In this document: piece by piece, positions 544-22,786 of the stretch | Layout of the letters: each line of letters starts with the position of its first letter | How positions within the stretch are numbered: position 1 is the stretch's first letter | Source of the DNA: a virus | DNA: 22,786 nucleotides | IMG/VR virus record: IMGVR_UViG_3300013131_001784 | Span: 1 to 22,786 of that record | Direction: 5' to 3' (one strand) | Position numbers and translations under genes: made by a program | The notes under the pieces: model-generated | The model's input: only the letters and a program-made list of their open reading frames with translations | The model's database searches: none | What the model was told of the DNA's origin: nothing

Positions 544-1166
544 AGATCCTCCTCCTCGTACAGATCCGCCTCGTCCAGCGGAACAGAATCCGGGAAATCC
601 CGATCTTCGGACGCTTCCTCTTCCGAGTCTAGATTAGAGTCAAGGGCGACGAAAGGTATCCAAGCAATCACGTCGATAGACCGCAGGGTGATGCGAACCG
701 CCGCTCGGTCCGAGTTGAGGTCTATTATGTCCCCCTCTAGGCGAGCGTAGTTCCCCCCGACGACCCGGACCCGGACCCCGACCTCTAGGCTGGAGGAGGT
801 AGAGGCGCGGAGCTGCTGTCGCAGCGTCTCGATGCGGGAGTCGGGAACGCAATGTATGACCCGGATCCCGTGGACCCCGCGAGACGAGATAACCTGAGCT
901 ACCAGGTTCCCCTTCTCCAGAGCGAAGTACCGCGTCTCCGGCAACCCGGAAGCGACGAAGGCGTACCCCTCGATTAGACGAACGGATACGCGCCGACCCC
1001 CCTTTTCGTAGGAGGTGTACGGAACGAACAGGGGGTAGGAAGCCTCTACCCCCAGCTCGGTTCGCAACGCTTTCGCGAGCGTACCCTCGACCGCCTTGTC
1101 CTCACCCACTTTGGTGAGTTCCAGGGTCGCCCACGTCATCGCGTCTCTGTCGTCCGCTTGATTCAC
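540..1166 (-). CDS. NusG-like transcription elongation factor (NGN + KOW)
   Basis: 208 aa from the GTG at 1166. Residues 10-110 resemble the NusG N-terminal (NGN) domain: MTWATLEL, then FVPYTSYEKGG, then LIEGYAFVASGLPETRYF. Residues 128-175 are a KOW domain (VGVRVRVVGGNYARLEGDI followed by IPFVAL). A strongly acidic tail (178-208, ending YEEEDL) is an addition to the usual layout. NusG-family NGN domains bind the RNA polymerase clamp and control pausing, termination or antitermination. The start is uncertain: GTG 1166 has a GGGA 5 nt upstream but overlaps dnaX by 65 nt; ATG 1139 begins exactly where the NGN homology starts and overlaps by 38 nt. It lies between dnaX and the tandem helix-turn-helix gene. 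Family assignment is by recognised motifs only; whether it promotes or blocks termination cannot be told from sequence. Confidence 0.83.
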   Translation of the reverse strand: MNQADDRDAMTWATLELTKVGEDKAVEGTLAKALRTELGVEASYPLFVPYTSYEKGGRRVSVRLIEGYAFVASGLPETRYFALEKGNLVAQVISSRGVHGIRVIHCVPDSRIETLRQQLRASTSSSLEVGVRVRVVGGNYARLEGDIIDLNSDRAAVRITLRSIDVIAWIPFVALDSNLDSEEEASEDRDFPDSVPLDEADLYEEEDL

Positions 1167-2463
1167 TTGATCCCGTAAGCTCCGAGGCTCGCATCTTTAC
1201 GAGCCGGAAGAACTCCAGAGGTCGAAGCTCAAGGGGAGAAGGAACAGAGGGCGCGGGGGCGGGGGTAGTTGCATCGTCCTTCCTCACAGCGCGAGGATGG
1301 ACGTAAACGTCGTCCACCATCTTCGGCTTGTCGTTAGGGGATGCGTCTACCTTACCTGACTTCGGGGGAGGAGCAGGAACGGAGGGTTCCGAGGCGCGGA
1401 GTTGAGGCCGGTTTAGGTCGCGATGCAGCGAGGCTACGTCGCAAAGCAGCATCGAAGCCGTCGGTCGCCCCGGCCTAGACGAAAACCTATCGGCAAAGAA
1501 AAGAAAATCGTCGGCCTGTCCCGAGTCCAGCGCGACCTGACCCATGTAGCCGGGGAAGTTAGTTATCCCGAGCGATACCTTGTAGGAGGTCATCGACAGG
1601 TCCGAGAGCTTCTCGTACAGGATCGAGGGCGAGCTTCGCTTCGTTAGATCGTCGGCCTGCTTCAGCGCCACAGAGAGGTCCGAACGGATCGATCTCAAAA
1701 GGCTCAGACACTCGGCGTTCAAGTCGAGGTGGAGGTACTTGGCGACGTTCTCGCGGGAGACGGGGCCGAGCATCGACACGCCCTCGACCGCCTTGAGAGC
1801 ATCCCGAATGTGGCACTCGGTTAGCTCGCCGATGAGCGTGAGGGCGTCCCGCTCGTAGGCGATGCCTTCGGCGTCGCAAATCTGTGCGAGGCGGGAGCCG
1901 ACCTGTTCCGGGAGGACGGGCTTGATGACGAACGCTGGGGCGCACCGGGAGAGGATAGTCGCCCGCATCTTCTCGGGCTCCGTCGTGCAGAAGATGCACA
2001 CGAGGGACTTATCCTCGCCGCCGGGGACCGTGTCCTCCATCGGCTTGAGGAGCGCATCGAGAGCGTCGAGCGTGAGCCGGTGGGACTCGTCGAACAAGTA
2101 GAGCCGCCGCTTGCCGGAGAAGGTGCTGTACTGAATCTCCTCAATGATCTTGCGAACGGAGTCCTTGCCGCTGTTGGTGGCGGCGTCGATCTCAAAGAAG
2201 TTCTCGGAGGAACCCCCCTCTAGGATCGACCGGCACGATGGACACGCATCGCACGGCCCCCCGTCTACCGGGGTGGCGCACAAGAGCGACCTCGCGAGGA
2301 TGCGTCCGAGCGTCGTCTTGCCGGAGCCCCACGGACCCGCGAACAGGTAGCTCTGGTAGAACCCTGCGCCCGACCGGACGTATTGGCGGAGGATCTGAAC
2401 GGTGCCGTCTTGGCCGAGCACGTCAGCGTAGGCGCGGGGGCGATACTTCGTGTCGAGGCTCAC
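1102..2463 (-). CDS. dnaX: DNA polymerase III gamma/tau-type clamp-loader ATPase
   Basis: 453 aa, starting with GTG at 2463 behind a GTAAAGG ribosome site. It has the full DnaX signature: KYRP near the N-terminus, Walker A GPWGSGKT (43-50), a zinc site of C62/C71/C74/C77, Walker B LYLFDESH (121-128, DESH instead of DEAH), and the SRC motif at 172-174 (ILSRC) that supplies the trans-acting arginine. The AAA+ lid and collar follow to about residue 330. The remaining ~120 residues are Pro/Ser/Lys-rich and poorly conserved, so this is a short gamma/tau form. In the family, three DnaX subunits with delta and delta' use ATP to open and load the sliding clamp. Delta, delta' and a clamp are all in this window, so the phage appears to carry its own loader. 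A structured leader precedes it (see 2475-2536). Confidence 0.95.
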   Translation of the reverse strand: MSLDTKYRPRAYADVLGQDGTVQILRQYVRSGAGFYQSYLFAGPWGSGKTTLGRILARSLLCATPVDGGPCDACPSCRSILEGGSSENFFEIDAATNSGKDSVRKIIEEIQYSTFSGKRRLYLFDESHRLTLDALDALLKPMEDTVPGGEDKSLVCIFCTTEPEKMRATILSRCAPAFVIKPVLPEQVGSRLAQICDAEGIAYERDALTLIGELTECHIRDALKAVEGVSMLGPVSRENVAKYLHLDLNAECLSLLRSIRSDLSVALKQADDLTKRSSPSILYEKLSDLSMTSYKVSLGITNFPGYMGQVALDSGQADDFLFFADRFSSRPGRPTASMLLCDVASLHRDLNRPQLRASEPSVPAPPPKSGKVDASPNDKPKMVDDVYVHPRAVRKDDATTPAPAPSVPSPLELRPLEFFRLVKMRASELTGSSESSGRQRRDDVGDPGTHQSG

Positions 2464-5175: not shown

Positions 5176-5738
5176 TCCATTAGCTCTTCGTAAGAGAACG
5201 AAGACCCTAGCGCGTCCCGGACTCCGACGGAATCCTCCGACCAACCGATGATACGGTTGGTCAACACATGGACGTGAGACGGTACGCGAAGCCCCGCGAG
5301 TACGAAGTCGATCCCCTTCTGGGTCGGTCTCCACAAGCCGGAGTTCTTCTTGTTAGAGTCCTCGTTGCCCTTCGTCTCAGCTAGTCCCCAAAAGGCGACG
5401 CAGGGGTAGTCCCGACCGTCGAACTCACAGTCCTTGAAGTTGATCCAGGAATGCCGACCCCTCGACAGGTGAATCCGGACGAGCGAGCACAGGAACCGGA
5501 CCATGTTCGCGTTGAGCTTGCGCTTGTAAACCTTGACGAGCTGGTCGCAGCAGGGACAGACGACGCCCTTGTCGGCGTTTGCCGATACGAACGCCCGGAC
5601 CTTCCCGACCGAATCGAAATCCGGAGCCGGGGCTCCGGCCTCGGAGGGTAGGAGCTTCGCGGGCTTCGGCTCCTCGGGGGGTTCTGCGTTCTCGGGATCA
5701 GCGAAAAACCAATCGTCCATCGTCCAATCTCGGCTCAT
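5172..5738 (-). CDS. Unrecognised protein with CPCC motif, 188 aa
   Basis: The ATG at 5738 overlaps the stop of the Rad50 C-half (ATGA). The first ~40 residues are acidic and Pro-rich (MSRDWTMDDWFF then PEEPKPAKLLP). A conserved-looking core starts with VVCPCCDQLVKVYKRKLNANMV (C61, C63, C64), followed by VRFLCSLVRIHLSRGRHSWIN, GRDYPCVAFWGL and LWRPTQKGIDFVLAGLRVPSHV. The latter resembles a winged-helix arrangement, with GLWRPTQKG as a typical wing-helix start. The CPCC and later cysteines may hold a zinc. A DNA-binding role is therefore possible but only inferred. It ends in an ATGA overlap with the next gene, so it belongs to the same transcription unit as the Rad50 C-half. Confidence 0.72.
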   Translation of the reverse strand: MSRDWTMDDWFFADPENAEPPEEPKPAKLLPSEAGAPAPDFDSVGKVRAFVSANADKGVVCPCCDQLVKVYKRKLNANMVRFLCSLVRIHLSRGRHSWINFKDCEFDGRDYPCVAFWGLAETKGNEDSNKKNSGLWRPTQKGIDFVLAGLRVPSHVHVLTNRIIGWSEDSVGVRDALGSSFSYEELME

Positions 5739-6367
5739 CGTATCCTCTGGAATGTCGAAAAGCCCCGGTCGCGCTTGATCCGGTACGCCCGATCCGCAGC
5801 GTCAACGAGGGCGGGATTATGTGTAACCAACAGAATATCAACGCCCATCTTCCGGCACAGCGTCTTGAGGAACGCCGACATGTTGAGGACGTACCGTTCG
5901 TCGAAAGCGGGCAGGCTCTCGTCGAGAAACAAGACGGGGCGCAACCCCCGTCGAACAATCAAAGCGAGTCGGAGCAGGACCGATTGCACGGTGCTGACGG
6001 CCCCGCCGAACCCCTCTAGGCTGACCCCCTCGATGACAGTCCCGTCCTCCTTGGTCTGGGAGGTGACGAGCGTCACGTTCACTTTTCCGCGAGACACCTC
6101 TACGTCGGCGCGGACGTTGATGTCCTGGTCATCGAAGACCGCCCGGACGCCCTCGCTCTGGAGCGTCTCGATGGCCTTGACGCCCTCGGTGATCTCCTGG
6201 TCGATTAGCTTCCGGAAAAGCGCCGCGACGAGATCCAGAAGGTCGATGCGTTCCTGCAACGCCTCGACGGAGGCGCGAGATTCCTCTAGCGCCGACAGCG
6301 CGGCGTCCCGTCTCCCGAGAGAGCGAGACGCCGCTTCCGTCAGGGACTTCAGGCGACCTTCATCCAT
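5735..6367 (-). CDS. sbcC: C-terminal half of split Rad50/SbcC ATPase
   Basis: 210 aa from ATG 6367, overlapping the clamp stop by 19 nt. Residues 1-45 are a short coiled coil (EAASRSLGRRDAALSALEES). The rest is the C-terminal ATPase lobe of Rad50/SbcC/T4 gp46: an ABC signature-like segment at 117-135 (LEGFGGAVSTVQSVLLRLAL), Walker B VLFLDE (145-150), D-loop SLPAFDERY, and the switch histidine H183 in ILLVTHNP. Walker A and the zinc hook are absent. Both are present in the gene at 10568-11662, so the two proteins should assemble to give complete ATP sites. The partner nuclease (Mre11/SbcD-like) is at 8766-9740. Stand-alone C-terminal halves of this kind do, to my recollection, occur in some other phages. 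The ATP-binding signature is somewhat degenerate (GFGGAVSTVQ versus LSGGE). Confidence 0.87.
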   Translation of the reverse strand: MDEGRLKSLTEAASRSLGRRDAALSALEESRASVEALQERIDLLDLVAALFRKLIDQEITEGVKAIETLQSEGVRAVFDDQDINVRADVEVSRGKVNVTLVTSQTKEDGTVIEGVSLEGFGGAVSTVQSVLLRLALIVRRGLRPVLFLDESLPAFDERYVLNMSAFLKTLCRKMGVDILLVTHNPALVDAADRAYRIKRDRGFSTFQRIR

Positions 6368-7485
6368 GCGACCGTCGTGAGGTAGGTATCCGACCCGCGC
6401 ACGTCGCGGAAACGGACCCAACCGCCCTTACCCTTCTTGGAGACCGAGAAGCGGACGGTGTCGCTGGAGTGACCCTCCAGAACCTTGGAGATGTAGACGT
6501 GGGAGATCGGGAAGCCGCCGTCCGGGAGGTCCGGAACGTCGTCAGACTTCTTCCCTTCGCCGAGCGTCTTGAGGCTGAGGGAGATCGGCTTCCCCTGAGC
6601 GGAAGCCATCGAGAGGAACACCTCTCCAGCCTTCGTCGATCCCATACGGAGGAGAGTGTCATCCCATCGAGCCCCTGCCGCCAGGAACCGAATCGAAGCG
6701 AGAACGTCGCTCTTCGGGAGGTCCCACCAGTAGTCGTCCTCGACCGTCCAATCGACGGCGATGTCCGGAAAACGGCTCCCGAACTTCGACTCCCCGTACA
6801 CGGCTCCGTCTGACCCCTTGAAGAACAGGGCGCGATCCGACTCCAGAACCTCGACCTCGGTTTCCTTACACGAGGCGAGGAACGAGGAGGCGGAACCGAG
6901 ATCCTTGCCAAACACCCGGATAGACGATCCCTCCATCCCGGCGATCTTGCTGAGAGCGACGGCCATCTGATCCGTCGAGTAGAGGCACCCGCCCCGGAAC
7001 TCTGCCACGCACAGGTGGGGAGCCTTCTGCTCCTGATCGTAGACGAATGACTTGGCGTGATTCAGCGCGTCGTGGAGCCGGTTCGCCGGAATGGTCGCGG
7101 TCTTGGTCGCCCCTGCGAGAACCTCGTCCCAGTACGGGAACAGGTCGGGGTCGAGACTGGCAAAGACGTTCTTGCCGCGACCCGTCGAGACGAGGATCTC
7201 ATTCGACTCGCCCGACGTAATCGTCAGGGTCGAATCGTCCGAGAGCGCCTCCATCAGATAGGCGATGCGCTTGGCCTCCACGGTGAACGACTTGCCCGCC
7301 TCTTCAACAGTCGCCACGACCGGACACGAAGAGAACGTGCGCCCCGAATAGGACAGAACCTCTACCTTCCCGTCCTTCGGTCGGAAGAGGTAGTGGGTCG
7401 AAATGTCCCCGCCTCCGGGGGCGACGGTGTTGGATACGATCTTGAGAGTAGCGTCCAGGTCGCGCTTGGCCAGCAGAATCTTCAT
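6349..7485 (-). CDS. dnaN: Sliding clamp, DnaN (beta)-like
   Basis: 378 aa, close to the ~366 aa of bacterial beta clamps, which are three-domain rings. The N-terminus MKILLAKRDLDATLKIVSNTVAP matches the first helix and strand of DnaN (MKFxVxRxxLxxxLxxVxxxV). Repeating features follow: FTVEAKRIAYLMEALSDDSTLTI, IPANRLHDALNHAKSFVYDQ, and LYSTDQMAVALSKI, which match the domain 1/2 pattern (TDxxRLA). Domain 3 is divergent; the usual C-terminal PMRL is replaced by VAWMKVA. ATG 7485 has a GAGG at 5 nt. The clamp would tether the phage polymerase to DNA; its loader subunits are at both ends of the window. It lies between a small coiled-coil protein and the Rad50 C-half, an unusual placement. A clamp is clearly the best call, though the identity to DnaN is low. 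Confidence 0.83.
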   Translation of the reverse strand: MKILLAKRDLDATLKIVSNTVAPGGGDISTHYLFRPKDGKVEVLSYSGRTFSSCPVVATVEEAGKSFTVEAKRIAYLMEALSDDSTLTITSGESNEILVSTGRGKNVFASLDPDLFPYWDEVLAGATKTATIPANRLHDALNHAKSFVYDQEQKAPHLCVAEFRGGCLYSTDQMAVALSKIAGMEGSSIRVFGKDLGSASSFLASCKETEVEVLESDRALFFKGSDGAVYGESKFGSRFPDIAVDWTVEDDYWWDLPKSDVLASIRFLAAGARWDDTLLRMGSTKAGEVFLSMASAQGKPISLSLKTLGEGKKSDDVPDLPDGGFPISHVYISKVLEGHSSDTVRFSVSKKGKGGWVRFRDVRGSDTYLTTVAWMKVA

Positions 7486-7496
7486 GTTACCTCACG

Positions 7497-7757
7497 TCAG
7501 AGATACGGTTTCAAAGCCTTTTCGGCAGAGTCGAGCTTGGTCTCGAACTGACGAAGAGAAGTCTCAATGGTGGATTCCAGCTTGGAAATCGTGTCGTCCA
7601 GCGTATCCGGGTCGAGATTCTTCGCTCGACACTCCTCGCGAACGGACTCCAGAGCCCTCTCCGATTCCTCTAGGCGACCTAGTAGGCGCTGGTGACGGGT
7701 TGCTAGCTCGTCCCGACGCTTCGCCGCCGCGTCGATGCGCGTCTTGAAGTCGCTCAT
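7497..7757 (-). CDS. Small coiled-coil protein, 86 aa
   Basis: ATG 7757 has a perfect AAAGGAG; the TAA stop of the preceding nuclease gene lies inside that ribosome site (TAAAGGAG). Nearly all of the sequence is charged heptad-like helix: RIDAAAKRRDELATRHQRLL, then EESERALESVREECRAKNL, a break at DPDT, then DDTISKLESTIETSLRQFET. There is a single cysteine (C43). No enzyme motif is seen. It lies between the Cas4-like nuclease and the clamp, within the split Rad50-Mre11 cluster. It may be an accessory coil of that complex (inference); helical hairpin proteins of this size can be many things. Translation and packing support the gene as real. Confidence 0.72.
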   Translation of the reverse strand: MSDFKTRIDAAAKRRDELATRHQRLLGRLEESERALESVREECRAKNLDPDTLDDTISKLESTIETSLRQFETKLDSAEKALKPYL

Positions 7758-7766
7758 GGATCTCCT

Positions 7767-8756
7767 TTACGCCTTCGGCTTACCGAAACCGTCCCCTAGA
7801 CCGAACTCGACCATTCCGCCGGAGGACTCGATGACCGACTCGGCTTCGGACTTCGGGCGCTTCGTGCGAACCTGTACCGTCGATTTACGGGCGTCGCACA
7901 CGTTCTGGTAGTCGCAGAACCGGCACGCCTTCGACGAGGGGGTCGCGTCGAAGTGCTCCTTCACGATGGCCTTGTACGTCTCTTGGGCGCGGTGGGCGAC
8001 GACCTTGAGGTCGTCCTTCTGGAACGGGATGTCCACCAGCCCCGTCCACTCAGACGGGTCGCCCTCGTGTTCCTTCGGAGGGGAGCCTTCGGGATACCGG
8101 AAGTAGATGAACGCGAGCTTCGACGGGAGCGTGTGGTAGGCGAGGTAGAAACAGAGCGCGTACCACCGGAGTTGGTCGGGGTTCGTGTACTTGCCGGGGT
8201 TGAGCGAGTTCTTGCCGTCGTAGATGGAGAGCCCCGCGTCGTCCCGCCGGATGATGAGATCCGGTCGCCCCGCGATGGGTACGTTCCCGTCGAGCATCGT
8301 AGACAGATCCACCTCGGCCTTCGCGTAAGGGCCGAGCAGACGGTTGCGCTTCATCGTCTTGAGGTAGCCGAGCACCCCGTCGATACACACCTGAAGCATC
8401 GCCTCCCGCGAGGGGGCCTCGTTCCAAAGGGGGTCTTTTCCCTCGGCGGCGTGCTTGAGGAACCTACGGGGAGACTCTAGGGCGAACTCCTTATGAACGA
8501 TCTGGGTGAGGTTGTCCGCCAAGCTCGCAGGCTCGCGCCAAAGCTCGTCGTTGTAGAGCCGCTCCATCGTCGCGGCGATAACCGTCCCCATGAGCGCGTG
8601 ATGCTCGCTGGATTGCTCCTCGACGGGAACCGGCTTGGAGCGACCGGGACCGCCTCCTACGTCGATGGTGCCGTAGCCTCTCGACCAGAGGAACTTCTGC
8701 GGGCACTCCTCGTAGGACTCGATGTTGCTCCAATAGAGCTTGAAGGGGCGGGCCAT
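7767..8756 (-). CDS. Cas4/RecB-type PD-(D/E)XK nuclease with predicted Fe-S cluster
   Basis: 329 aa from ATG 8756. Nuclease motifs: E148 in AEVDLS, GRPDLIIR with D166, YDGKNS with D180 and K182, and the RecB/Cas4 motif QLRWYA with Q195 and Y199. Four cysteines are arranged as in Cas4 and AddB: C18 near the N-terminus (YEECPQKF) and C278, C281, C287 (CRFCDYQNVC) at the end. These normally bind a 4Fe-4S cluster that staples the fold. Such enzymes resect or trim DNA ends. It follows the Mre11-like gene, so it probably works in double-strand break processing or replication-recombination rather than CRISPR adaptation; there is no cas1, cas2 or array here. The spacing to the upstream gene is 9 nt, with a weak ribosome site (GTAAAGTC element). 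Confidence 0.88.
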   Translation of the reverse strand: MARPFKLYWSNIESYEECPQKFLWSRGYGTIDVGGGPGRSKPVPVEEQSSEHHALMGTVIAATMERLYNDELWREPASLADNLTQIVHKEFALESPRRFLKHAAEGKDPLWNEAPSREAMLQVCIDGVLGYLKTMKRNRLLGPYAKAEVDLSTMLDGNVPIAGRPDLIIRRDDAGLSIYDGKNSLNPGKYTNPDQLRWYALCFYLAYHTLPSKLAFIYFRYPEGSPPKEHEGDPSEWTGLVDIPFQKDDLKVVAHRAQETYKAIVKEHFDATPSSKACRFCDYQNVCDARKSTVQVRTKRPKSEAESVIESSGGMVEFGLGDGFGKPKA

Positions 8757-8765
8757 CCCAAGACT

Positions 8766-9740
8766 TTACCGTCCGCCCGCCTTTTCGACGTAGAGAACCG
8801 CCTGTTCTTTCACCTCGTCAGGTACGCCGGGGAGGTTGCGAATCGCGTCCCGAAGCGAGGTCTGAGACGAGGGGGAGAGCACCGCTTGGAGGTGGTCCAC
8901 GAACTCCTCCGTCATCGACGCCCGGAGGTCGGTTTGGTCCTTCGCCACGAGGTCGAACACCTCGGAAGCGGGGGCGTGGCGGAGCGGAATCTTCGTCGCC
9001 TCGACTCCCTCGGGGGAGAAGTCGATCCGAGCGACTGACGGGATACGGGTGAGGTCGTCTTGAGAGAGCGACCCCCGCGTGAGGCTCCCGATGTTGACGA
9101 CGGTCTTGCCGCCGGGAGTCTCAACGATGCCTTGGTCCTTGTGCCAATGACCGAAGCAGAACACGTCCCCGTCGAACCCGTCGAGGTCGGCGTACTTGAT
9201 CACGTCCTCGGACTCAAAGAGCATCCCGCCGTCCTTCGACGCGAGAACGTGGGCGATCACGACGAGGTAGTTCTCGTCGCCCTTCTTGATGCGCCGGAAC
9301 CGCTCTAAGTCGTAGCTCGTCCCGTGATACGGCACGCCGACGACCCGGACCTTGGTCGCCCCGTCCGTAAAGACGGCTTCGTGCTCATCGTAGCACCGCC
9401 GGAACGCCCCCGACTCGTACATCACGCCGAGCGGTTGTTGCGGAAGGAACGTGTAGTCGCCGTACACGCAATCGTGATTGCCGACGTTCGCGTAGACGGG
9501 GCACGGGTAGGCGCGATGGACCTCGATGGCCTGACGAACGAGCGCGTGCGAGTTACGGGAGGGGCTCTTCAGGTCGAAGAAGTCCCCGCCGTCGAGTACC
9601 GCCGTCGCCTTGAGGTCGCGGGCTAGATCCCCCACGTTGGCGAGCTTCCGAAGCACCGTCTCGGTCCAGTTGTCCGTGCGGGACCGGGGGGTGTGATCCG
9701 ACAAGTGAACGTCGGTGCGCCAGAGGAGGGTGATAGCCAC
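8766..9740 (-). CDS. sbcD: Mre11/SbcD-like nuclease
   Basis: 324 aa, starting with GTG at 9740. All calcineurin-like metallophosphoesterase motifs are visible: D10-x-H12 (RTDVHLSD), GGD53 (LDGGDFFD), GN88H89D (ANVGNHD), a histidine in VVIAHV, and GHWH (CFGHWHKD). This is the double-manganese centre of Mre11/SbcD/T4 gp47. After residue ~250 a capping region and a helical tail (DEVKEQAVLYVEKAGGR) follow, comparable to the Rad50-binding end. With the Rad50 halves it would form an ATP-driven endo/exonuclease that processes broken or hairpin ends and feeds RecA. No Shine-Dalgarno lies at the normal distance; the only candidate (AGAGG) is in a small hairpin upstream (9743-9758). Confidence 0.92.
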   Translation of the reverse strand: MAITLLWRTDVHLSDHTPRSRTDNWTETVLRKLANVGDLARDLKATAVLDGGDFFDLKSPSRNSHALVRQAIEVHRAYPCPVYANVGNHDCVYGDYTFLPQQPLGVMYESGAFRRCYDEHEAVFTDGATKVRVVGVPYHGTSYDLERFRRIKKGDENYLVVIAHVLASKDGGMLFESEDVIKYADLDGFDGDVFCFGHWHKDQGIVETPGGKTVVNIGSLTRGSLSQDDLTRIPSVARIDFSPEGVEATKIPLRHAPASEVFDLVAKDQTDLRASMTEEFVDHLQAVLSPSSQTSLRDAIRNLPGVPDEVKEQAVLYVEKAGGR

Positions 9741-9742
9741 GG

Positions 9743-9758
9743 AGAGGTTACGCCCTCT
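9743..9758 (-). promoter_or_regulatory. Short hairpin over the only candidate ribosome site of the Mre11-like gene
   Basis: On the minus strand, AGAGG can pair with CCTCT around a 6-nt loop (GCGTAA) just before GTG 9740. The purine-rich AGAGG is the only candidate ribosome site, and the stop codon (TAA) of the upstream gene lies in the loop. The arrangement suggests translation coupled to that of the upstream gene. The stem is only 5 bp. Confidence 0.35.
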
Positions 9759-10347
9759 TTAGCTCGGGGTGGTTCGTCTCTAGCCAAGAGATCGCCTCAC
9801 GCCCCGCCTTCGACATCACGATCCCGTTCTTGATCGAGACGTAGTGCGACTTGAGCATCTTCTCGGCGAGGCTCGCATCCTCGGCGCGGAGGTGGTAGCT
9901 CGACACGAGCGCGTCCACGACCCACTCGATCTTGTTGTCGTCAGTGTGGCCGGTGAGCCACCGCTCGACGGCGAGCCCCGCCGCGTAAGCGTCTGCCTCG
10001 TACTTGACGCGGGCCTCAGCCTCCGCGAGGTAGAGCCACGCGAACTTCAGCCCGGACTCCTGAAACTGTAGGACGTGTTGGCACTCGTGGGTCAGGATCT
10101 CAATGAACAGCAACGGGTCATCCCGGTGCGGCTTCGGCATATAGATGCGGGAGCCGACCGTCGTGGTGAAGCGGGACTTGAAATCGTCCCCCTTGGCGAC
10201 GCCCGTCGCCCCAAAGAACCGGGCGAGGTCGAACCCTGTCGCGATGGCGTCCATCTCGGGGGCGCTCTCCTTCGCGACGACCGCGCAGTCGAACCGCTCC
10301 TCCATGTACGCGCCGAACACCTTGGCGACTGCCTTGAGGTCGGTCAT
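9748..10347 (-). CDS. Putative HExxH zinc-dependent peptidase-like protein
   Basis: 199 aa from ATG 10347, with GGGAG 6 nt upstream. The core motif is ILTHECQHVLQF: H87-E88-C-Q-H91 fits HExxH with a long helix, and the downstream helix EAEARVKYEADAYAAG offers a third ligand (E117 or a nearby acid), the pattern of gluzincin-like peptidases. The residues before it (FTTTVGSRIYMPKP then LLFIEIL) look like the edge strand and helix of a zincin. There is no signal peptide or membrane segment, so a cytoplasmic role is expected. Its substrate is unknown. It directly follows the lipoprotein gene and precedes mre11. HExxH occurs by chance fairly often; the acidic helix at the right distance makes a metal site likely, but peptidase activity is not shown. 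Confidence 0.68.
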   Translation of the reverse strand: MTDLKAVAKVFGAYMEERFDCAVVAKESAPEMDAIATGFDLARFFGATGVAKGDDFKSRFTTTVGSRIYMPKPHRDDPLLFIEILTHECQHVLQFQESGLKFAWLYLAEAEARVKYEADAYAAGLAVERWLTGHTDDNKIEWVVDALVSSYHLRAEDASLAEKMLKSHYVSIKNGIVMSKAGREAISWLETNHPELKRA

Positions 10348-10350
10348 CGG

Positions 10351-10590
10351 TCACTCCCCCGTGCAAGCGGCTTGAGGGACACACGCATGGACCCCGTCAG
10401 AGGTCATACAGCACACACCCCCCACCTCAGTGCATGAAACGTCCCCGACCGGGGTCCACCGCCCCGTGCCCGAACAAACGTAAGGACGGTCGTTCATGCA
10501 CGTCGTCGTGTTGGGACGGCAACCGTCTTGCGGGGGCAAACAGCTCCCCGCCGCGAACAGAAACACGCTAACCGTGAGTAGCTTCATCAT
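10351..10590 (-). CDS. Cys-rich secreted lipoprotein-like protein, 79 aa
   Basis: The start ATG at 10590 (or 10587) has GGAG at 4 nt and overlaps the Rad50 N-half by 23 nt. A short signal sequence (MMKLLTVSVFLFAAGSC) ends in a lipobox-like AGS-C17; the -3 Ala is acceptable but not ideal. The mature part is small and carries eight further cysteines (24, 31, 39, 53, 60, 61, 70, 76) in the arrangement C-x6-C-x7-C-x13-C-x6-CC, with YVCSGTGRW and GVCCMTSDG. This pattern resembles the many small Cys-rich surface proteins in myxobacterial genomes (impression, no search). It would be exported and disulfide-bonded. A lipoprotein is odd inside a replication operon; superinfection exclusion or another host-envelope role is possible. 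Confidence 0.65.
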   Translation of the reverse strand: MMKLLTVSVFLFAAGSCLPPQDGCRPNTTTCMNDRPYVCSGTGRWTPVGDVSCTEVGGVCCMTSDGVHACVPQAACTGE

Positions 10591-11662
10591 GGGTCTCCAT
10601 CCCGCACGTCGGGCACACGCCCGCCTCAGATAGAAGCGTCGATAGGCTCTCGCGGGACTCTCTTACTTCGACTGCGGACTTTTCGGACTCTTGCCGGAGG
10701 CTCGACAAAGACTGAACCCTCAATCGCAGTACGTCCCGTAACGCCGCCGCCGCAGTCAGGAGAGCTACCGACCCGCCTACGTCTAGCGAGGGGAGGTCTA
10801 TCCCCTTCGCGGCGTCGAGAGCTGAACGGGAGTCGAGTACGGCTTGGTTGGCAGATACCAGCCTAGCGAGAGCCGACCGGACCCACTCTAGCGCGGCGGA
10901 ACCCTTCGACGCTTTCGATAGCGACGAGTCCTCCAGGTCTAGGAGCGTCCTCAGCGGCGCGAGGCGGTCTGCCTCTTTCTGCGCGAGGGAGAGACGATCC
11001 CGAAGCGCCCGAGCCTCGGATAGCTTCAATCGAAGGGAGACAATCTCGACTTGAAGAGACTGGGTTTCTCGGACCTGAGCGAGAGCGCCCTCTAGCCCGT
11101 CGAACTTCTTGACGGAGGACTCGTGCTTGGAGGCATCTTCCTGACGGAGCTTGAGATCGCTCGCCGCCGTGCGCCGGTCAGACTGAGCGTTGCGGAGCGC
11201 CTCGTTCAAGACGCCCACACGGGTCACGTCCGAGACGGCCTCGGCGAGCACCGACCCCGGTTCGTCGATCAAGAACACCTGACCGACGAACTGATGGGCG
11301 AACTGCGGCCAAAGCTCGCGACCCGCCGCCTCAACGGGCTGCACCCCCAGAGAGGTCATCTCCGGGGGTGCGCCTTGGCCGACCTTGTTGAGCGTCTGAC
11401 CGTCGAGGACGTAGCGATTTACCTTCTCGCCCTTCTCCCACACGAGCGAGCGCCCGTCCGCGAAGTCGAGCGAGACCTCGCACGACGCCTTGCCGTGGCG
11501 GACGTACTTGGTCCCGCGAGCGTTCGTGAACGCCCCGTAGACGGCCCGGATCATCGCCGTCTTGCCGGAGTTGTTAGGTCCGGTGACGACGGTGAGCCCG
11601 TCCACGTCTAGCGAAGCGTCCTCGATGCTCTGGAAGTTCTTTACCCGAAGACGGAAGGGCAC
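10568..11662 (-). CDS. sbcC: N-terminal half of split Rad50/SbcC ATPase, ending at the zinc hook
   Basis: 364 aa from GTG 11662. It begins MPFRLRVKNFQSIEDASLDV, with Walker A GPNNSGKT (28-35), the typical start of Rad50/SbcC/gp46. A Q-loop-like region follows (QFAHQFVGQVFLIDEPGS), then ~190 residues of coiled coil (about 155-345) and a zinc-hook motif C350-P-T-C353 (EAGVCPTCG). The protein stops 11 residues later with THDEATHG. In complete Rad50 a second coil and the Walker B lobe would follow the hook. Here these are encoded by the gene at 5735-6367, so the split falls at the apex of the coiled coil. The mature complex would need both, plus Mre11 (8766-9740). I found no frame continuation downstream that would make this a simple frameshift; the next gene is unrelated. 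Confidence 0.9.
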   Translation of the reverse strand: MPFRLRVKNFQSIEDASLDVDGLTVVTGPNNSGKTAMIRAVYGAFTNARGTKYVRHGKASCEVSLDFADGRSLVWEKGEKVNRYVLDGQTLNKVGQGAPPEMTSLGVQPVEAAGRELWPQFAHQFVGQVFLIDEPGSVLAEAVSDVTRVGVLNEALRNAQSDRRTAASDLKLRQEDASKHESSVKKFDGLEGALAQVRETQSLQVEIVSLRLKLSEARALRDRLSLAQKEADRLAPLRTLLDLEDSSLSKASKGSAALEWVRSALARLVSANQAVLDSRSALDAAKGIDLPSLDVGGSVALLTAAAALRDVLRLRVQSLSSLRQESEKSAVEVRESRESLSTLLSEAGVCPTCGMETHDEATHG

Positions 11663-16441: not shown

Positions 16442-18781
16442 CTAGGAAATCGAGGCTAGAAGTCTCTGCTTGAGAAGGGTGTTACGGGCGCTTTCCCGCT
16501 CATTGGCGACGGCCCGGACGACCGCCGAGCGGGTACCCACGAGGACGACTTTCTTACGGGCGCGGGTAATCGCCGTGTAGAAGAGGTTGCGCTGTAGCTG
16601 GTGCGAGAACGAGTTGACGACCGGCATCACAATGCAGTCGTACTCTAGGCCCTGGCACTTATGGACCGTGACTGCGTAGGCGAGCCGTAGAACGGTCGGC
16701 ACCTTGGCGAACGGCACCTTGACGTGGAGCACCGGGGGGCCGTGGATCTTGATCTCGACCTCTTTGTTCTTGCGGTCGATAGAAACGAGCTTCCCTACGT
16801 CGCCGTTGAACACCCCGAGCTTGTAATCGTTCTTGACGACCATGATGCGGTCGTCCTCGCGGAGAACGTCCGAGCCGAGCTTCATCTCCCGCAACGTGGG
16901 CTGCTTGGGATTGAGTAGTTCCCGGAGCCGGGAGTTGAGCGTAGTAACCCCCACGGCCCCGGCGTGACGAGGCGAGAGCACCTGAAAGTTCCGGCGCTGC
17001 TCATATAGCTTTGAAGCGATATTGCACACGAGGTCGGCGACCTTGTCCTCGTCGCTGACCTCTAGCAAAGCGAAGTCGCTCCCGACCGGAGCCTCCGGCA
17101 CCTCGCCCCGGTACACGTCATGGGCGGCGTGGATGATCGGGCTGGTGTCGGCCTGACGGAAAATCTCCGTGAGCGCGACCGTTGGGAAGATGCCCGAGGC
17201 AATCAAGTCACGCAGCACGTTGCCGGGACCGACCGACGGTAGCTGAGCAGCGTCCCCGACGAACACGAGCCTCGCGTCCTTCCGGGTACACACGAGAATC
17301 CGGTAGAGGAGGTGCTGGTCGATCATCGAGGACTCGTCCACGACGACCACTTGGGCGGGGTGGGGGTTGCCGGGGCCGAATCCCCAATCCTCTCCCTGAC
17401 CGTCCGAGGTAGCGGCGTTACCGTCCCCGTCGCCGACGACGCCCGCGTAGGTAGACTCCCGAGACTCGTCCGAACCGCCGGATGCCTTGAACGCTCGATG
17501 GATCGTTGAGGCGGGTGCGCCCGTGACGCTGGCGATGCGCTTGGCGGCGATGCCCGTCGGCGCGAGTAGAAGGAACGGGATGCCCGCCTCTTGAAGGAGC
17601 AAGACCGCCATCCGAAGGCTAGTTGTCTTGCCGGTGCCGGGGAGCCCGGAGATGACCGACACGGGTTCCGTGAGGGCGTGGACGACGCCTTGTACTTGGA
17701 GACCGGAGAGCGAAACTCCCCCGACTGAGCCGAGCCGAGCGAGCGCCGCTTGTACCGCGCCCCGAAGAGTCAAAGCCCCCGTTGCGTCATCGACGGCGAG
17801 CGCCTTGACGCACGCGGCCTCTTGGTCCGAGGGAATCACCGCGTTCCGAGCGCGGTCCATTAGCATTTGGGCCGACTCCGACTCCATGCGGTACGACCAC
17901 GGATCATAGATGGCCGTCGTTCCGGGCTGAGTCGTCCGGTCGAGGACGAGCAATCCCGCGTTGGCAGCGGCCTTGACGGTCTGGGCGATGTCGGCGTCAG
18001 CGAAGCCGGGGTCCATGCCCCGTACCGCCCCGAGTAGCTCGCCGCTGATCGCGAACAAGTGCCCGAATCCCTTGCCCGACCGAGCCGCGTAGAGCACCGC
18101 CCCGAAAAGCCGCTTCGGGTTCGCCGCCGAACAGTCAAGATGAAGTCGAGTCGCTACCGAGTCGGCCTCGTGGAACGAAAACCCGTCAATTTGGACGAGG
18201 CTCCACGGGTCCGTCGAGAGTACCTCTTGCGCCTTGTCTCCGAAGTGCGACCAAACTTGACGGATGCGACCCTGCGGCAATCCGAGGTCGTTCAAGAAGT
18301 CGAGCGCGAGGAAATGCGAGCGGGCTGCTTGCCACCGCGAGTGGACATGGAGCGCCGTGAACTTGGTGAGGCCGGGGGCCTCGCGGATTTTCTCCGGATC
18401 AAGGAGCGCCTTGTTTAGCTCGTTGCCGAAGTGCGTCTTCAGGCTAGCAGCGACCGAGGGGCCGATGCCGTGAGAAACAAGCACCTTCTCGCAGGTATCC
18501 GCGTCCCAATCGCTCTTGATGATGGGGGCGCGGGTGACGCGAATCTGCCGCCCGTATTGAGGGTGGTCGTCCCACACGCCTTCCCACCCGAACCAAGTAC
18601 CGACGCCGACCTTCAAGCCGGGGATGTCGCCCCGGATAGTGATTTGCCCCGACAAGGCAACGGCTTCGGGATTCTCGGTTACTGATTCAGAGTCGAGCAC
18701 CATGCGGAGGACGTAGAACGCCTTGGCGGCGTTCTCAAAGACGACGCTGTGGACCCGACCGCTGAAATACGACGGCTTCAT
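16442..18781 (-). CDS. RecD2-like superfamily 1B helicase
   Basis: 779 aa from ATG 18781, in an ATGA overlap with the small gene upstream. The N-terminal region (FSGRVHSVVFENAAKAFYVL, then GWEGVWDDHPQYGRQI) is the OB-like domain of RecD2-type enzymes, followed by a helix-hairpin-helix-like region (CEKVLVSHGIGPSVAASL). Helicase motifs: Walker A SGLPGTGKTTSL (~378-389), motif II VVVDESSMID (~480), GDAAQLPSVGPGNVLRDL, TEIFRQ, and AYAVTVHKCQGLEYD (~703) with FYTAITRARKKVVLVG near the C-terminus. SF1B helicases of this type move 5'->3'. No RecB or RecC partner is present, as in Deinococcus RecD2. In phages, T4 Dda is a functional parallel. Likely roles are fork restart or branch processing. About 50 residues around 430-470 (GGSDESRESTYAGVVGDGDG) look like an inserted linker. 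Confidence 0.92.
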   Translation of the reverse strand: MKPSYFSGRVHSVVFENAAKAFYVLRMVLDSESVTENPEAVALSGQITIRGDIPGLKVGVGTWFGWEGVWDDHPQYGRQIRVTRAPIIKSDWDADTCEKVLVSHGIGPSVAASLKTHFGNELNKALLDPEKIREAPGLTKFTALHVHSRWQAARSHFLALDFLNDLGLPQGRIRQVWSHFGDKAQEVLSTDPWSLVQIDGFSFHEADSVATRLHLDCSAANPKRLFGAVLYAARSGKGFGHLFAISGELLGAVRGMDPGFADADIAQTVKAAANAGLLVLDRTTQPGTTAIYDPWSYRMESESAQMLMDRARNAVIPSDQEAACVKALAVDDATGALTLRGAVQAALARLGSVGGVSLSGLQVQGVVHALTEPVSVISGLPGTGKTTSLRMAVLLLQEAGIPFLLLAPTGIAAKRIASVTGAPASTIHRAFKASGGSDESRESTYAGVVGDGDGNAATSDGQGEDWGFGPGNPHPAQVVVVDESSMIDQHLLYRILVCTRKDARLVFVGDAAQLPSVGPGNVLRDLIASGIFPTVALTEIFRQADTSPIIHAAHDVYRGEVPEAPVGSDFALLEVSDEDKVADLVCNIASKLYEQRRNFQVLSPRHAGAVGVTTLNSRLRELLNPKQPTLREMKLGSDVLREDDRIMVVKNDYKLGVFNGDVGKLVSIDRKNKEVEIKIHGPPVLHVKVPFAKVPTVLRLAYAVTVHKCQGLEYDCIVMPVVNSFSHQLQRNLFYTAITRARKKVVLVGTRSAVVRAVANERESARNTLLKQRLLASIS

Positions 18782-19250: not shown

Positions 19251-21179
19251 TCAGATCTCGCAGACCCCGCCCACGCACGCGGCCTCTTGCGAACCGTGAC
19301 CCTCGTCCATCTGCTCGTAGAGCGATAGGTCGCCGAAATTGATCCGGGGCATCTCACTCTCGGACTTGAGGTACTCCTCTTCCGTGATCTCGATGTACGG
19401 GGCGAGACGGTACACGCCGCCGTCATACGGCAGGAAGCTCAGGCCGGTTACCTCATCGAAGTTCTCGTAGAGCCAATCCCCGACCGCCTTCCACTCGTCG
19501 TCGCGGACGTAGATCGTGGCGGATTGGTTGTGGCCCTTCTCGTTGCACCACGTCCGCATGATCTTGAGGTAGCGGTTGAGTTGGTCGAGCGCCTTCTCGT
19601 CGTTCCGGGTCATCGCCGTCTCCGGCGCTTTCACCGGGAACCGGGCGACCCACACGTCCACCTTGTCGTCATCGAGGTTCTCTTGCCCGTTCTCCTTGAA
19701 GACGGGCACCCCGGCGTCCTTGATGAGGCGGAAGAGAGGATCCTTCGACGAGATACGAACGTGCCGGTGGTAGAACTTCGCGTACCGAGGGTGAAAGCCG
19801 CTAGCGCAATCCACGAACTGCGACGAGTTGCCTGAAGGCTTGCCACAGGTGATCGCCGCAGCGCGGTTGATGCCGATGGCGTCCGCTGCAATGATCGCGG
19901 TGCTACGGGCGATGGCGTTCAAGTACTCCATCGCATCGTCGTCCGTCGATAGCGCGGGGTTGTCGCATTGGCCGGTGATGTCCACGCCGAGGAGCCGGTC
20001 CTCGTTGCATAGCTCCGACCACGCCGGACGGAGATACGGGAAGTGCGTGTAGCTGGATTGGACCGCGCCGATCCACGTCGCCGCCCGGACCTTCGTCGCC
20101 ATCGTCTCAACGGTGTCATGCGCCCTCATGACCGCCGCCGTGAGATTGCAAAACTGCCCGCCGCCGCCCTCGCCGGTCCACGGGTCGAGCGCCCGCTTGA
20201 ACCGGAGAAGAATCTCGCCGCAGGGATTACTACGGAATTCGCCGCCGCGCTTCGCGACCTTGTCGGCGGAGACGATGTAGAAGCCGCGCTCGCCCGAACC
20301 CGACTCCGCGAGCGCCTTCCACTCCACGTCGAACGTGGAGCGGTCCGGGCGCTCCGTCCAGACGGCGGAGTTGTTCGCCATGTAGCGGATCGACGGGAAC
20401 GAACCCCGCTTCCAATCCTTCGCGTGGCGCATCTCCTCGTCGCCCGGATCGCTGAAAGAGATCAACGAGGCTCGGCGGAACCCGCCGACCATCACGATCT
20501 CAGCGATCATGCACATCATGTCGTGCGCCTCGATGGGCTTGAGGCGGCGACCGGCAGCGCCCGAGATCGTCTCTGAGGCGAAGTCGAGAACCCGCTTGAG
20601 CGGCTCCGGCCCGGAGGCACGACCGCCCTTGGTCTTGAGGCGAGCGCCCTTCTCGCGGATCTTGGAGTAGTCGAACGCGACCTTGTTGCCACGGTGAAGC
20701 TCAGTCACCGCGAAGAACACCGCGTCGGCCCACCCCTCCGTCGAGTCGTCAATCGCGTAGCCGATCTCCTTGCCGGTCGGCTCAGCGACGACCGGGAGAT
20801 TGTCCACGAACGTGCGCTCAACTGAGAAGCCTACCCCCGTGCCCTGCATGAGGATGTAGAGCGCCTCGCTGAACGCCTTGAGGTTGTCTACGGGGAGGAA
20901 CGAGCAGTTGTACCCACAGGTATTGTCGCGGGCCATCGCGTCGCCCGCACACCACAACGCGCGCATCGACGGCAACACGTCGAAGTTGAGGATGAGCGTG
21001 CGGGCCTTCTCCGACAGATCTGCTGGGACGTTCTTTCCCGTGAAGATGAAATCGACGTAGCGGTCTACCGTCTCGGGCCACGATTCGCGGCGCTTTTCGG
21101 ACTCCAACCACCGCGCATAGGTGCGCGTGTAAACGAACTCACTCAGCAGATTCGGGAAAGAGAACGCCCTGTCGAGCAT
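19251..21179 (-). CDS. nrdJ: Class II (adenosylcobalamin-dependent) ribonucleotide reductase
   Basis: 642 aa from ATG 21179 with GAGGG at about 6 nt. It matches the monomeric B12-dependent ribonucleotide reductase type (Lactobacillus leichmannii RTPR style). FDVLPSMRALWCAG is followed by RDNTCGYNCSFLP (the first active-site Cys region, residues ~85-93). The finger-loop SNPCGEI (around residue 318) holds the thiyl-radical cysteine. GGGGQFCNLTA contains the second reducing Cys. The C-terminus ends C635-VGGV-C640-EI, the mobile disulfide pair re-reduced by thioredoxin-type donors; L. leichmannii ends similarly. No NrdB or activase is needed. The enzyme makes deoxynucleotides from ribonucleotides for phage DNA synthesis, and requires cobalamin from the host. 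The 178-bp gap upstream suggests separate control. Confidence 0.95.
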   Translation of the reverse strand: MLDRAFSFPNLLSEFVYTRTYARWLESEKRRESWPETVDRYVDFIFTGKNVPADLSEKARTLILNFDVLPSMRALWCAGDAMARDNTCGYNCSFLPVDNLKAFSEALYILMQGTGVGFSVERTFVDNLPVVAEPTGKEIGYAIDDSTEGWADAVFFAVTELHRGNKVAFDYSKIREKGARLKTKGGRASGPEPLKRVLDFASETISGAAGRRLKPIEAHDMMCMIAEIVMVGGFRRASLISFSDPGDEEMRHAKDWKRGSFPSIRYMANNSAVWTERPDRSTFDVEWKALAESGSGERGFYIVSADKVAKRGGEFRSNPCGEILLRFKRALDPWTGEGGGGQFCNLTAAVMRAHDTVETMATKVRAATWIGAVQSSYTHFPYLRPAWSELCNEDRLLGVDITGQCDNPALSTDDDAMEYLNAIARSTAIIAADAIGINRAAAITCGKPSGNSSQFVDCASGFHPRYAKFYHRHVRISSKDPLFRLIKDAGVPVFKENGQENLDDDKVDVWVARFPVKAPETAMTRNDEKALDQLNRYLKIMRTWCNEKGHNQSATIYVRDDEWKAVGDWLYENFDEVTGLSFLPYDGGVYRLAPYIEITEEEYLKSESEMPRINFGDLSLYEQMDEGHGSQEAACVGGVCEI

Positions 21180-21357: not shown

Positions 21358-22314
21358 CTAGTATCGACCTAGAAAAGCGCGAACCAGACCGGCCTCTAAC
21401 AGGTTCCACGGCGAGACGCTACCCCGGAAGGTCGCCTCCTGGGAGACGGAGATTACCTGGAGAAGGTTCGCGCACCCGGATACCTTCCAACGGAGCGCAG
21501 CGGGCAAAACTTTCTTCTCCCAGAACCAAGGATTCGCTCCGACACTTCCCGCTGCCGCTGAGGGGGACAATCCCGAAGCGTGTAGGTGCGCGGCTTGGAG
21601 CCATCTCATCACAGTCGGAGACAGTACCCGACCGCACAGCTCAATCGTCGGGTCAGACCCCTTCGCCTTCCGAAAGCGATCCATCTCCAAGAGGAGCGTC
21701 CGGGAGTTCTGGGCCGCGAGCGCCTCTGCGATAGCTGAACCGTCGGTTTCTACGAGGGCGGCGACCGTGGCCCGGAGGTGATCCGGGAGAACCTTCTCGG
21801 CGTCTCCCGCGTAGAGGACGGCTTTCTGGATCTCAAACGCGAGTATCCCGAGGTCCGTACCGACCTTCCGAACGAGCGCCGTCGCCAAAGACGGGTCGAG
21901 AACCTTCCCGCGAGACTTCGCCTCCTCGACGCAGAACGCCGAGGCGTGTTCCTCCATCTTGTAGAACGCCGGGAGGCTGAACGTCTTGACGAGCGCCTTG
22001 GGCACCGAGTCGAGCGGGGGCGCGAGCTTGTCGGCGTCAGTTACGAGCAACAGCACGACGCTCGGGTCCGGGTCGTCCAACTGAGACCGGAGCAACGACG
22101 CGGCGAGCTTCTCGGCCCGCGACACCACGAGGAGTGTGTTCGCCCCGAACAGGCTCGTAGACGCGAGGCTCTCCTCTACGTCGCCGGAGACCCCCGCGTC
22201 CACGGGAAGGACGTTCCACCCTTCGCGAGCGCGAGTAGAGGTGACCTTGCGGACGAGACGCCGCCGTTGGAACTCATCGGTCCCGGCGACCACGAGGACG
22301 GGCGGGTTCTTCAC
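21358..22314 (-). CDS. holA: DNA polymerase III delta subunit-like clamp-loader protein
   Basis: 318 aa from GTG 22314, which overlaps the delta' stop as GTGA and is preceded by GAGGG. The longer in-frame start at 22401 gives only a Pro/Arg-rich extension and would overlap the delta' gene by 91 nt. N-terminal PVLVVAGTDEFQRRRLVRKV and SLFGANTLLVVSRAEKL are the delta pattern (a GEEPFL-type start, then LFGxxxLVVV). LLVTDADKLAPPL and IRKVGTDLG-like helices follow. The C-terminal half is the helical collar domain that joins the loader ring. Delta binds the beta clamp and opens it. Together with DnaX (1102-2463) and delta' next door this gives a bacterial-type phage clamp loader. Confidence 0.88.
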   Translation of the reverse strand: MKNPPVLVVAGTDEFQRRRLVRKVTSTRAREGWNVLPVDAGVSGDVEESLASTSLFGANTLLVVSRAEKLAASLLRSQLDDPDPSVVLLLVTDADKLAPPLDSVPKALVKTFSLPAFYKMEEHASAFCVEEAKSRGKVLDPSLATALVRKVGTDLGILAFEIQKAVLYAGDAEKVLPDHLRATVAALVETDGSAIAEALAAQNSRTLLLEMDRFRKAKGSDPTIELCGRVLSPTVMRWLQAAHLHASGLSPSAAAGSVGANPWFWEKKVLPAALRWKVSGCANLLQVISVSQEATFRGSVSPWNLLEAGLVRAFLGRY

Positions 22315-22786
22315 GCGACCCTCACGAGGAACGGGGCGAGAACCCGCGCCGGGGTGAGGGGGGCGTCCTTGAGGGCGCGGAGCCGCCGGAGTCCCGCCCA
22401 CAAGTCGAGTAGGTCGTCTTGCACCGAGGGGTCACTGAGGCGGGACGCGAGCACCCCCACGACGGCCTCAACGAGAAGATCCGTCTCACCCTTCGCTTCG
22501 CGGAACTCCTCAATCAACACAGTCCAGTTGCCCTGAATGTAGGCGGAGACGAGCTTGGTCGCCCTGTCCGTGTAGAAGTCGAGCCGGGGGTCCCCACCGG
22601 GGGCAAACTTCAAGACGCACCTCGACCGGATCGTCGGAAGCACCTCCCCGAGATCCCTCGCCCACAAGTAGAGCCGGGGTCCGTGGACGAACGGCTCCTC
22701 GACCGTCTTGAGGAGGACATCCCCGGTCGCGAGGGCCACCTCGTCTACGGGGCCGACGACCACCGAGAAGGGCTTGTCACCGACCG
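22311..22786 (-). CDS. holB: DNA polymerase III delta' subunit-like protein (5' end outside window)
   Basis: The frame is open to the right edge, so the N-terminal domain is missing; 157 residues are visible. LLKTVEEP and, further on, LPTIRSRC are hallmarks of delta' and DnaX (LLKxLEEP, LPTIxSRC). Before them, KPFSVVVGPVDEVAL matches the Walker B-like strand, with no DEAx box visible (VDE only), as expected for the non-hydrolysing delta'. The end is helical. It ends in a GTGA overlap with delta. In the loader, delta' is the rigid stator that supports ATP-driven opening. Assignment to delta' rather than to another DnaX-like protein rests on the neighbouring delta and a separate dnaX. Confidence 0.82.
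   Translation of the reverse strand, partial: VGDKPFSVVVGPVDEVALATGDVLLKTVEEPFVHGPRLYLWARDLGEVLPTIRSRCVLKFAPGGDPRLDFYTDRATKLVSAYIQGNWTVLIEEFREAKGETDLLVEAVVGVLASRLSDPSVQDDLLDLWAGLRRLRALKDAPLTPARVLAPFLVRVA

Follow-up and report, generated by a model that had tools for sequence, protein, structure and literature searches.

The virus fragment analyzed here (IMG/VR record IMGVR_UViG_3300013131_001784, 22,786 bases, hereafter the window) very probably encodes an Mre11-Rad50 (SbcCD-like) DNA-end-processing nuclease whose Rad50 would be assembled from three polypeptides: N, which carries the first ATPase lobe, a helical arm and a zinc hook; S, a small coiled coil; and C, which carries the second lobe. 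This reading is built on five computed observations, namely the homology of the pieces, the N-S-C order of their genes, the position of the hook, the existence of natural fusions, and a near exclusion between the split genes and canonical SbcC. All these genes belong to a single long array of replication and recombination genes on the minus strand of the window, and those of the putative enzyme, with their motifs, are as follows.

10568-11662, minus strand: N-half, with Rad50 N-lobe, modular helical arm and C-terminal zinc hook (GTG start, 364 amino acids; phrog_16465, E 5e-20; AAA_23)
11558-11581, minus strand: Walker A motif GPNNSGKT, N residues 28-35 (G28, G33 and K34 invariant in 22 relatives)
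10604-10615, minus strand: zinc-hook motif CPTC, N residues 350-353 (C350, P351 and C353 invariant in 22 relatives)
8766-9740, minus strand: Mre11/SbcD-type nuclease, 324 amino acids (motifs DVH, GGDFFD, GNHD, AH and GHWH; Metallophos, E 2.7e-9)
7497-7757, minus strand: S, small coiled coil built as helix, DPDTL break, helix, 86 amino acids (weak match to phrog_5328, E 2e-4)
5735-6367, minus strand: C-half, short coil and Rad50 C-lobe, 210 amino acids (ATG start lying within the last bases of the clamp gene; phrog_15167, E 6e-19)
5996-6013, minus strand: GFGGAV at the position of the ATP-binding cassette (ABC) signature, C residues 119-124 (serine of LSGGE/Q absent)
5918-5932, minus strand: Walker B motif LFLDE, C residues 146-150 (D149 and E150 invariant in 30 relatives)
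5819-5824, minus strand: switch/H-loop TH, C residues 182-183 (T182 and H183 invariant in 30 relatives)

The initial annotation of this DNA had described a Rad50 in two halves, and its description of N, with Walker A, a Q-loop-like segment (the Q-loop FAHQF, Q124), a helical arm and the CPTC hook followed by the stop codon 11 residues later, was correct in both coordinates and motifs. A profile built from 22 N-halves matched Rad50 N-lobe structures (5f3w/3aux, E 6e-8 to 2e-7) and, weakly, solved zinc-hook structures (1l8d/6zff, E 0.005-0.007); one related locus (L067) also gave a match to Rad50_zn_hook, below its cut-off. The AlphaFold model of N retrieved a Rad50 N-lobe by Foldseek (7.5e-5). 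For C, the top match of a profile of 30 C-halves was to Pyrococcus Rad50 C-lobe chains (3qkr_B, E 2.6e-13), and the AlphaFold model, which opens with a leading helix of 75 residues, retrieved Rad50 C-lobes (1.5e-8). The Walker B, D-loop and switch histidine earlier assigned to C were found in place, whereas the signature claimed with them is not canonical, reading GFGGAV instead of LSGGE/Q. Judged by these matches, N qualifies as lobe I of Rad50 (Walker A, Q-loop) and C as lobe II (Walker B, D-loop, H-loop). In the N-halves of two relatives (L013:2686-4806 and L029:3385-5631) an intein with a LAGLIDADG endonuclease is inserted exactly in the Walker A motif (GK^T).

The two halves do not add up to a whole Rad50. 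A chromosomal relative of N aligned to residues 3-453 of 878 of the archaeal Rad50 model PRK03918 (E 3.9e-20), ending in the hook, and its partner C aligned to residues 816-877 of the same model and, along almost all of its length, to residues 690-893 of PRK01156. As the N match stops near 453 and the C match starts near 690, the descending coil, about 240 residues, is encoded in neither half. The proposed split of Rad50 at the hook or apex thus holds in that N keeps the hook, but C corresponds only to the last 210 residues or so, and the descending coil is absent.

A further gene of the system, S, had been overlooked. Counterparts of S are gp34 of Bacillus phage vB_BboS-125, a 129-amino acid open reading frame (ORF) of the jumbo phage LR745208, and small genes within bacterial operons, and the break carries a motif, G-x-x-P-[DE]-x-L, that is kept from jumbo phages to Tissierellia. 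A set of 76 loci of phages and bacteria was found to hold N, S and C, some of them near copies of each other, and the order was N-S-C on the same strand in every one (76/76). The CxxC hook lay at the C-terminal end of N in all 75 trios with a complete N, the N match of the remaining trio being partial. On chromosomes the genes touch or overlap each other in most loci, and in vB_BboS-125 (L001) an AP2-type gene is inserted between N and S.

Natural fusions provide the strongest computed evidence for a putative composite head of N and C and for its partnership with Mre11, a gene present in nearly every full-trio locus. In three genomes a single chain of 684-700 amino acids comprises Mre11, the N-lobe and the C-lobe without arm or hook, and the two lobe matches either overlap or lie next to each other, about 8 and 12 residues apart.

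L133:2764-4818, L134:4152-6254 and L135:3583-5670: armless single-chain fusions, beside an AddB-like gene

In the C-lobe tree these chains nest within the clade of bacterial split systems, where their neighbor is a genome that keeps N, S and C as three genes (Shimodaira-Hasegawa-like approximate likelihood ratio test, 84-89), and this placement marks them as re-fusions with loss of the arm and thereby of S. Canonical SbcC lies far from the split C-lobes in this tree, joined to them by a long branch (3.18); the split probably arose only once. Fusions of Mre11 with N occur in a viral locus (L053, 6814-9132) and in the Paenibacillus plasmid pSC2 (L140:2052-4577); in both, S and C come next as genes of their own. 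Another candidate fusion, L136, was rejected as a RecN (signature SGGE). With these fusions and the invariant pairing and order of the genes, it is most likely that N and C share one head, as first proposed for two polypeptides; the pieces, however, appear to be three, S included.

The search of phages for paired halves that had been suggested as a check recovered the N-half in 29 of the 35 virus records with a C-half, besides the constant order and hook position given above; the six records without N are contigs of 41-91 kb, which may be incomplete. In the circular genome of Tunturiibacter phage Tunturi_5 (308,711 bases), N (L003:5001-6458) and C (L004:4857-5546) are located about 107 kb apart on opposite strands. 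No canonical SbcC was detected at E 1e-5 in any of the 24 split-bearing virus records searched. On the other hand, the phage setting in which the system was first noticed is not specific to it, as chromosomes of Bacillota carry it as well: scanning of bacterial genomes yielded 24 loci, 23 from Bacillota and one from a Cloacimonadota metagenome-assembled genome. Several Bacillota genomes carry Mre11-N-S-C as a tight chromosomal operon, placed between recA and rny (RNase Y) in Aedoeadaptatus ivorii and between recA-recX and rny in Thermoflavimicrobium (gene names by sequence reading), and the bacterial copies are annotated as "metallophosphoesterase" or "hypothetical protein".

Among 398 genomes of the phylum of A. 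ivorii, the C-half was present in 67 and a full-type SbcC in 172, but both in only 3, where 29 were expected (Fisher test without correction for relatedness; p 3e-14). Fourteen of the 18 split-bearing genomes examined had no full-length SbcC, just P-loop fragments of proteins of the size of SMC, RecN or RecF, and the four that had one (Sutcliffiella, Paenibacillus agilis, Dethiobacter and Brevibacillus) carry a phage-like subtype of the split system. As split C and SbcC are nearly mutually exclusive, the split enzyme appears to replace SbcCD in the genomes that carry it.

We infer from the sequences a physical assembly with ATPase and nuclease activity. In it, N would contribute lobe I, with Walker A and the Q-loop, together with the arm and its C-terminal zinc hook, C would contribute lobe II, with a signature-like loop, Walker B and the H-loop, on a short coil, and both would meet at the base of the arm to form one ABC head. 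Two such heads would sandwich ATP and so gate Mre11, and two N hooks would share one zinc ion, dimerizing the complex. Because the descending coil of Rad50 is missing, S, the fixed third piece with its helix-break-helix form, most likely packs on the N-arm or on the coil of C, completing or bracing the arm. In the phage, the enzyme would serve recombination-dependent replication by resecting or clipping DNA ends; RecA/UvsX, RuvC, a RecD-like helicase, a PD-(D/E)XK nuclease and a clamp are encoded nearby.

Several points weigh against this three-piece Rad50. The structure predictions are of monomers, and the N model has a predicted template modelling score of 0.37, so it does not resolve the path of the arm. 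The split family has [RF...]GG[GAS][VIL] at the signature instead of the LSGGE present in the six canonical SbcC proteins compared, which came from relatives of the same genomes; the position of the serine is taken by glycine, or by the preceding R/F, according to the alignment, so that the contact with ATP is probably altered. Since this serine of Rad50 contacts ATP, the sandwich of the split enzyme may be different or weak. The N-half of Microbacterium phage Magritte (L005:4989-6041) lacks the CxxC hook; its C-half (L006) lies near the opposite end of the linear record. In 7 loci that have both halves the profile detected no S, although small coiled-coil ORFs lie near C in three of those inspected (L044, L045 and L052). 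Finally, the Fisher test treats the 398 genomes as independent, and the SbcC scan scored the top two candidates per genome.

One alternative concerns the shape of the arm. The N model has four helices of about 50 residues each over residues 136-347. The length of the N-arm up to the hook ranges from 162 to 358 residues among relatives and clusters near 162, 206, 252, 299 and 358, in steps of nearly one module, and, with the hook as origin, its prolines recur every 48.5 residues or so (97 clusters in 44 arms, relatedness filtered in part only; vector strength 0.45, with 0 of 2000 shuffles as high). As the arm varies while the sizes of C (201-242 amino acids) and S (75-111 amino acids) remain constant, no piece can serve as a plain 1:1 antiparallel strand along the entire arm. 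Nor does the length of S rise with that of N (Spearman -0.41), and S is therefore no simple partner strand of full length in a 1:1 ratio. The idea that several copies of S tile the descending strand was also considered and found unsupported, as the relatives did not show whole-number modules and the lengths of S and C did not track the arm. These data are compatible with the same enzyme bearing a different arm, in which two N-arms would run parallel, zipped together up to a shared zinc hook, with S capping or bracing their base. The growth of the arm in module-like steps next to invariant C and S, its proline breaks, and the absence from both small pieces of a descending strand of matching length all favor such an arm. 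On the other hand, four helices of about 50 residues would fit a folded-back bundle equally well, and the periodicity carries the filtering limit given above. We regard the parallel arrangement as on balance unlikely.

It is also conceivable, but improbable in our judgement, that Rad50 is here a two-piece protein made of N and C, and that S is an unrelated neighbor kept by operon inertia. S is a low-complexity coil with a weak match to a public family, the profile misses it in the seven loci mentioned above, its length is negatively correlated with that of N, and the armless fusions do without it. This last fact is also compatible with S needing an arm, as S is absent exactly where the arm is absent, its loss coinciding with arm loss. 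Moreover, an unrelated neighbor would hardly be flanked by N and C in each of the 76 trios, from phages to chromosomes, even around insertions such as the AP2-type gene or Mre11, the nuclease and the clamp, nor would its break motif be expected to be conserved over that range.

A third alternative takes N as a zinc-hook tether or ATPase of its own and C as an independent ABC-type ATPase, both simply recruited to Mre11. The distance between the two genes in Tunturi_5 and the absence of a canonical signature from C would agree with it. However, either half alone would be half of an ABC nucleotide site, with Walker A only in N and Walker B and the H-loop only in C; N accompanies C in most virus records; and single chains that join the N-lobe, the C-lobe and Mre11 nest within the split clade, all of which makes two separate enzymes very improbable. 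A sequencing or assembly artefact or a recent gene breakage leaving pseudogenes has a negligible probability, given that six intact genes lie between the halves and that the same architecture, with intact motifs, is conserved in many independent records.

Returning to the three-piece enzyme, we consider it an evenly balanced question whether Mre11-Rad50 enzymes with these three subunits form a class of their own. In such a class the arm would not be an intramolecular antiparallel coil: N-arms of variable, modular length would end in a C-terminal hook, S would complete or brace them, and C would only close the head. Part of the Bacillota, with the operon next to recA, and several phage lineages would use this class as their standard SbcCD, and the armless single-chain forms would be derived from it.

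In the window the N and C genes are separated by 4,200 bases holding exactly six genes, Mre11 and the sliding clamp among them, in agreement with the roughly 4.2 kb and six genes first reported. Besides Mre11 and S, these are the following.

10351-10590, minus strand: small cysteine-rich lipoprotein-like gene, between N and Mre11
9748-10347, minus strand: putative metallopeptidase with a HECQH motif, between N and Mre11 (phrog_13834)
7767-8756, minus strand: PD-(D/E)XK nuclease
6349-7485, minus strand: sliding clamp (beta-like)

The window's closest relatives share the arrangement N, Mre11, nuclease, S, clamp and C across about 5 kb. The clamp gene between the halves, singled out by the initial annotation as a notable layout, is local to these relatives, and elsewhere N, S and C are adjacent. 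ORFs resembling the metallopeptidase and the lipoprotein-like gene were also found in LR745208. The clamp is part of a DNA polymerase III-like clamp and clamp-loader set in the window (1102-2463, 6349-7485, 21358-22401 and 22311-22763), composed of DnaX/tau-like, beta-like clamp, delta-like and delta-prime-like ORFs. A sigma-70 region-4 protein adjoins a NusG/KOW-looking ORF at 1-543 and 540-1166, the latter without Pfam match, and a class II (B12-dependent) ribonucleotide reductase gene is located at 19251-21179. The RecD-like helicase of LR745208 (L002:545-3334) has an intein-like insert in its helicase core that is absent from the RecD-like gene of the window (16442-18781).

The arms and hooks of Rad50 have been thought to require one chain running up and back, and here the halves of the head, the arm and the hook are distributed among different genes. 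The family offers natural experiments in the module-by-module change of arm length, the armless fusions, the loss of the hook in Magritte, and the replacement of the signature serine, so that the purpose of arm and hook and the need for that serine in the ATP sandwich become directly testable with small proteins. The split enzyme would also fill the place of SbcCD in many Bacillota genomes in which SbcC seems to be lacking, and would unite orphan phage families ("exonuclease", "ATPase" and the S family) into one machine.

Relatives of N, C and S are already contained in phrog_16465 ("exonuclease"), phrog_15167 ("ATPase") and phrog_5328, the last without assigned function in PHROGs, but these families are not linked there as one enzyme. 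No description of a split Rad50 was found in the open-licence full-text literature searched, and one may exist elsewhere. Mre11-Rad50 fusions lacking one NTPase segment have been reported in Anaerostipes and in a Bacillus phage (Yoshida et al. 2011, PMC3175470). They resemble the proteins described here in joining Mre11 to Rad50-like parts, but that study reported neither S nor a gene of its own for the missing segment; we propose that a separate C gene would explain the missing segment, including that of Bacillus phage 0305phi8-36. An assignment to Lamassu LmuB or another defence SMC-like ATPase was rejected, as the PADLOC matches were limited to the P-loop and coil, with no full-length LmuB, and the neighbors are recombination and replication genes.

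Phage T4 encodes its own Rad50 and Mre11, gp46 and gp47, which act in recombination-dependent replication. T4 gp46 is one continuous polypeptide, whereas the Rad50 of the window is in separate pieces. The closest solved structures are those of archaeal Rad50 from Pyrococcus furiosus (3qkr, 1ii8), which include both lobes, in several entries as separate chains. That two-chain form is an experimental construct, while in the system of the window the two-chain state is natural. With respect to SbcCD (TIGR00618/TIGR00619), the likeness lies in a Mre11/SbcD-type nuclease gene close to an ABC ATPase with a Walker A lobe, a coil, a CxxC hook and a Walker B lobe, and the difference in an ATPase encoded by three genes, without the descending coil and the signature serine. 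The window N reached 16.2 bits against the SbcC model TIGR00618, short of its cut-off of 478.5, which all the SbcC proteins of the 398-genome scan also failed to reach, and the window Mre11 matched the sbcd model with E 1.3e-6, under its cut-off. Of the features that define Rad50/SbcC, both lobes, the CxxC hook and the genetic link to Mre11/SbcD are present; a serine-containing LSGGQ/E and a single chain with both lobes joined by an antiparallel coil are not. An enzyme predicted to work like Mre11-Rad50 that lacks these two defining features of SbcC, the single chain and the signature serine, is best described as a variant of Mre11-Rad50.

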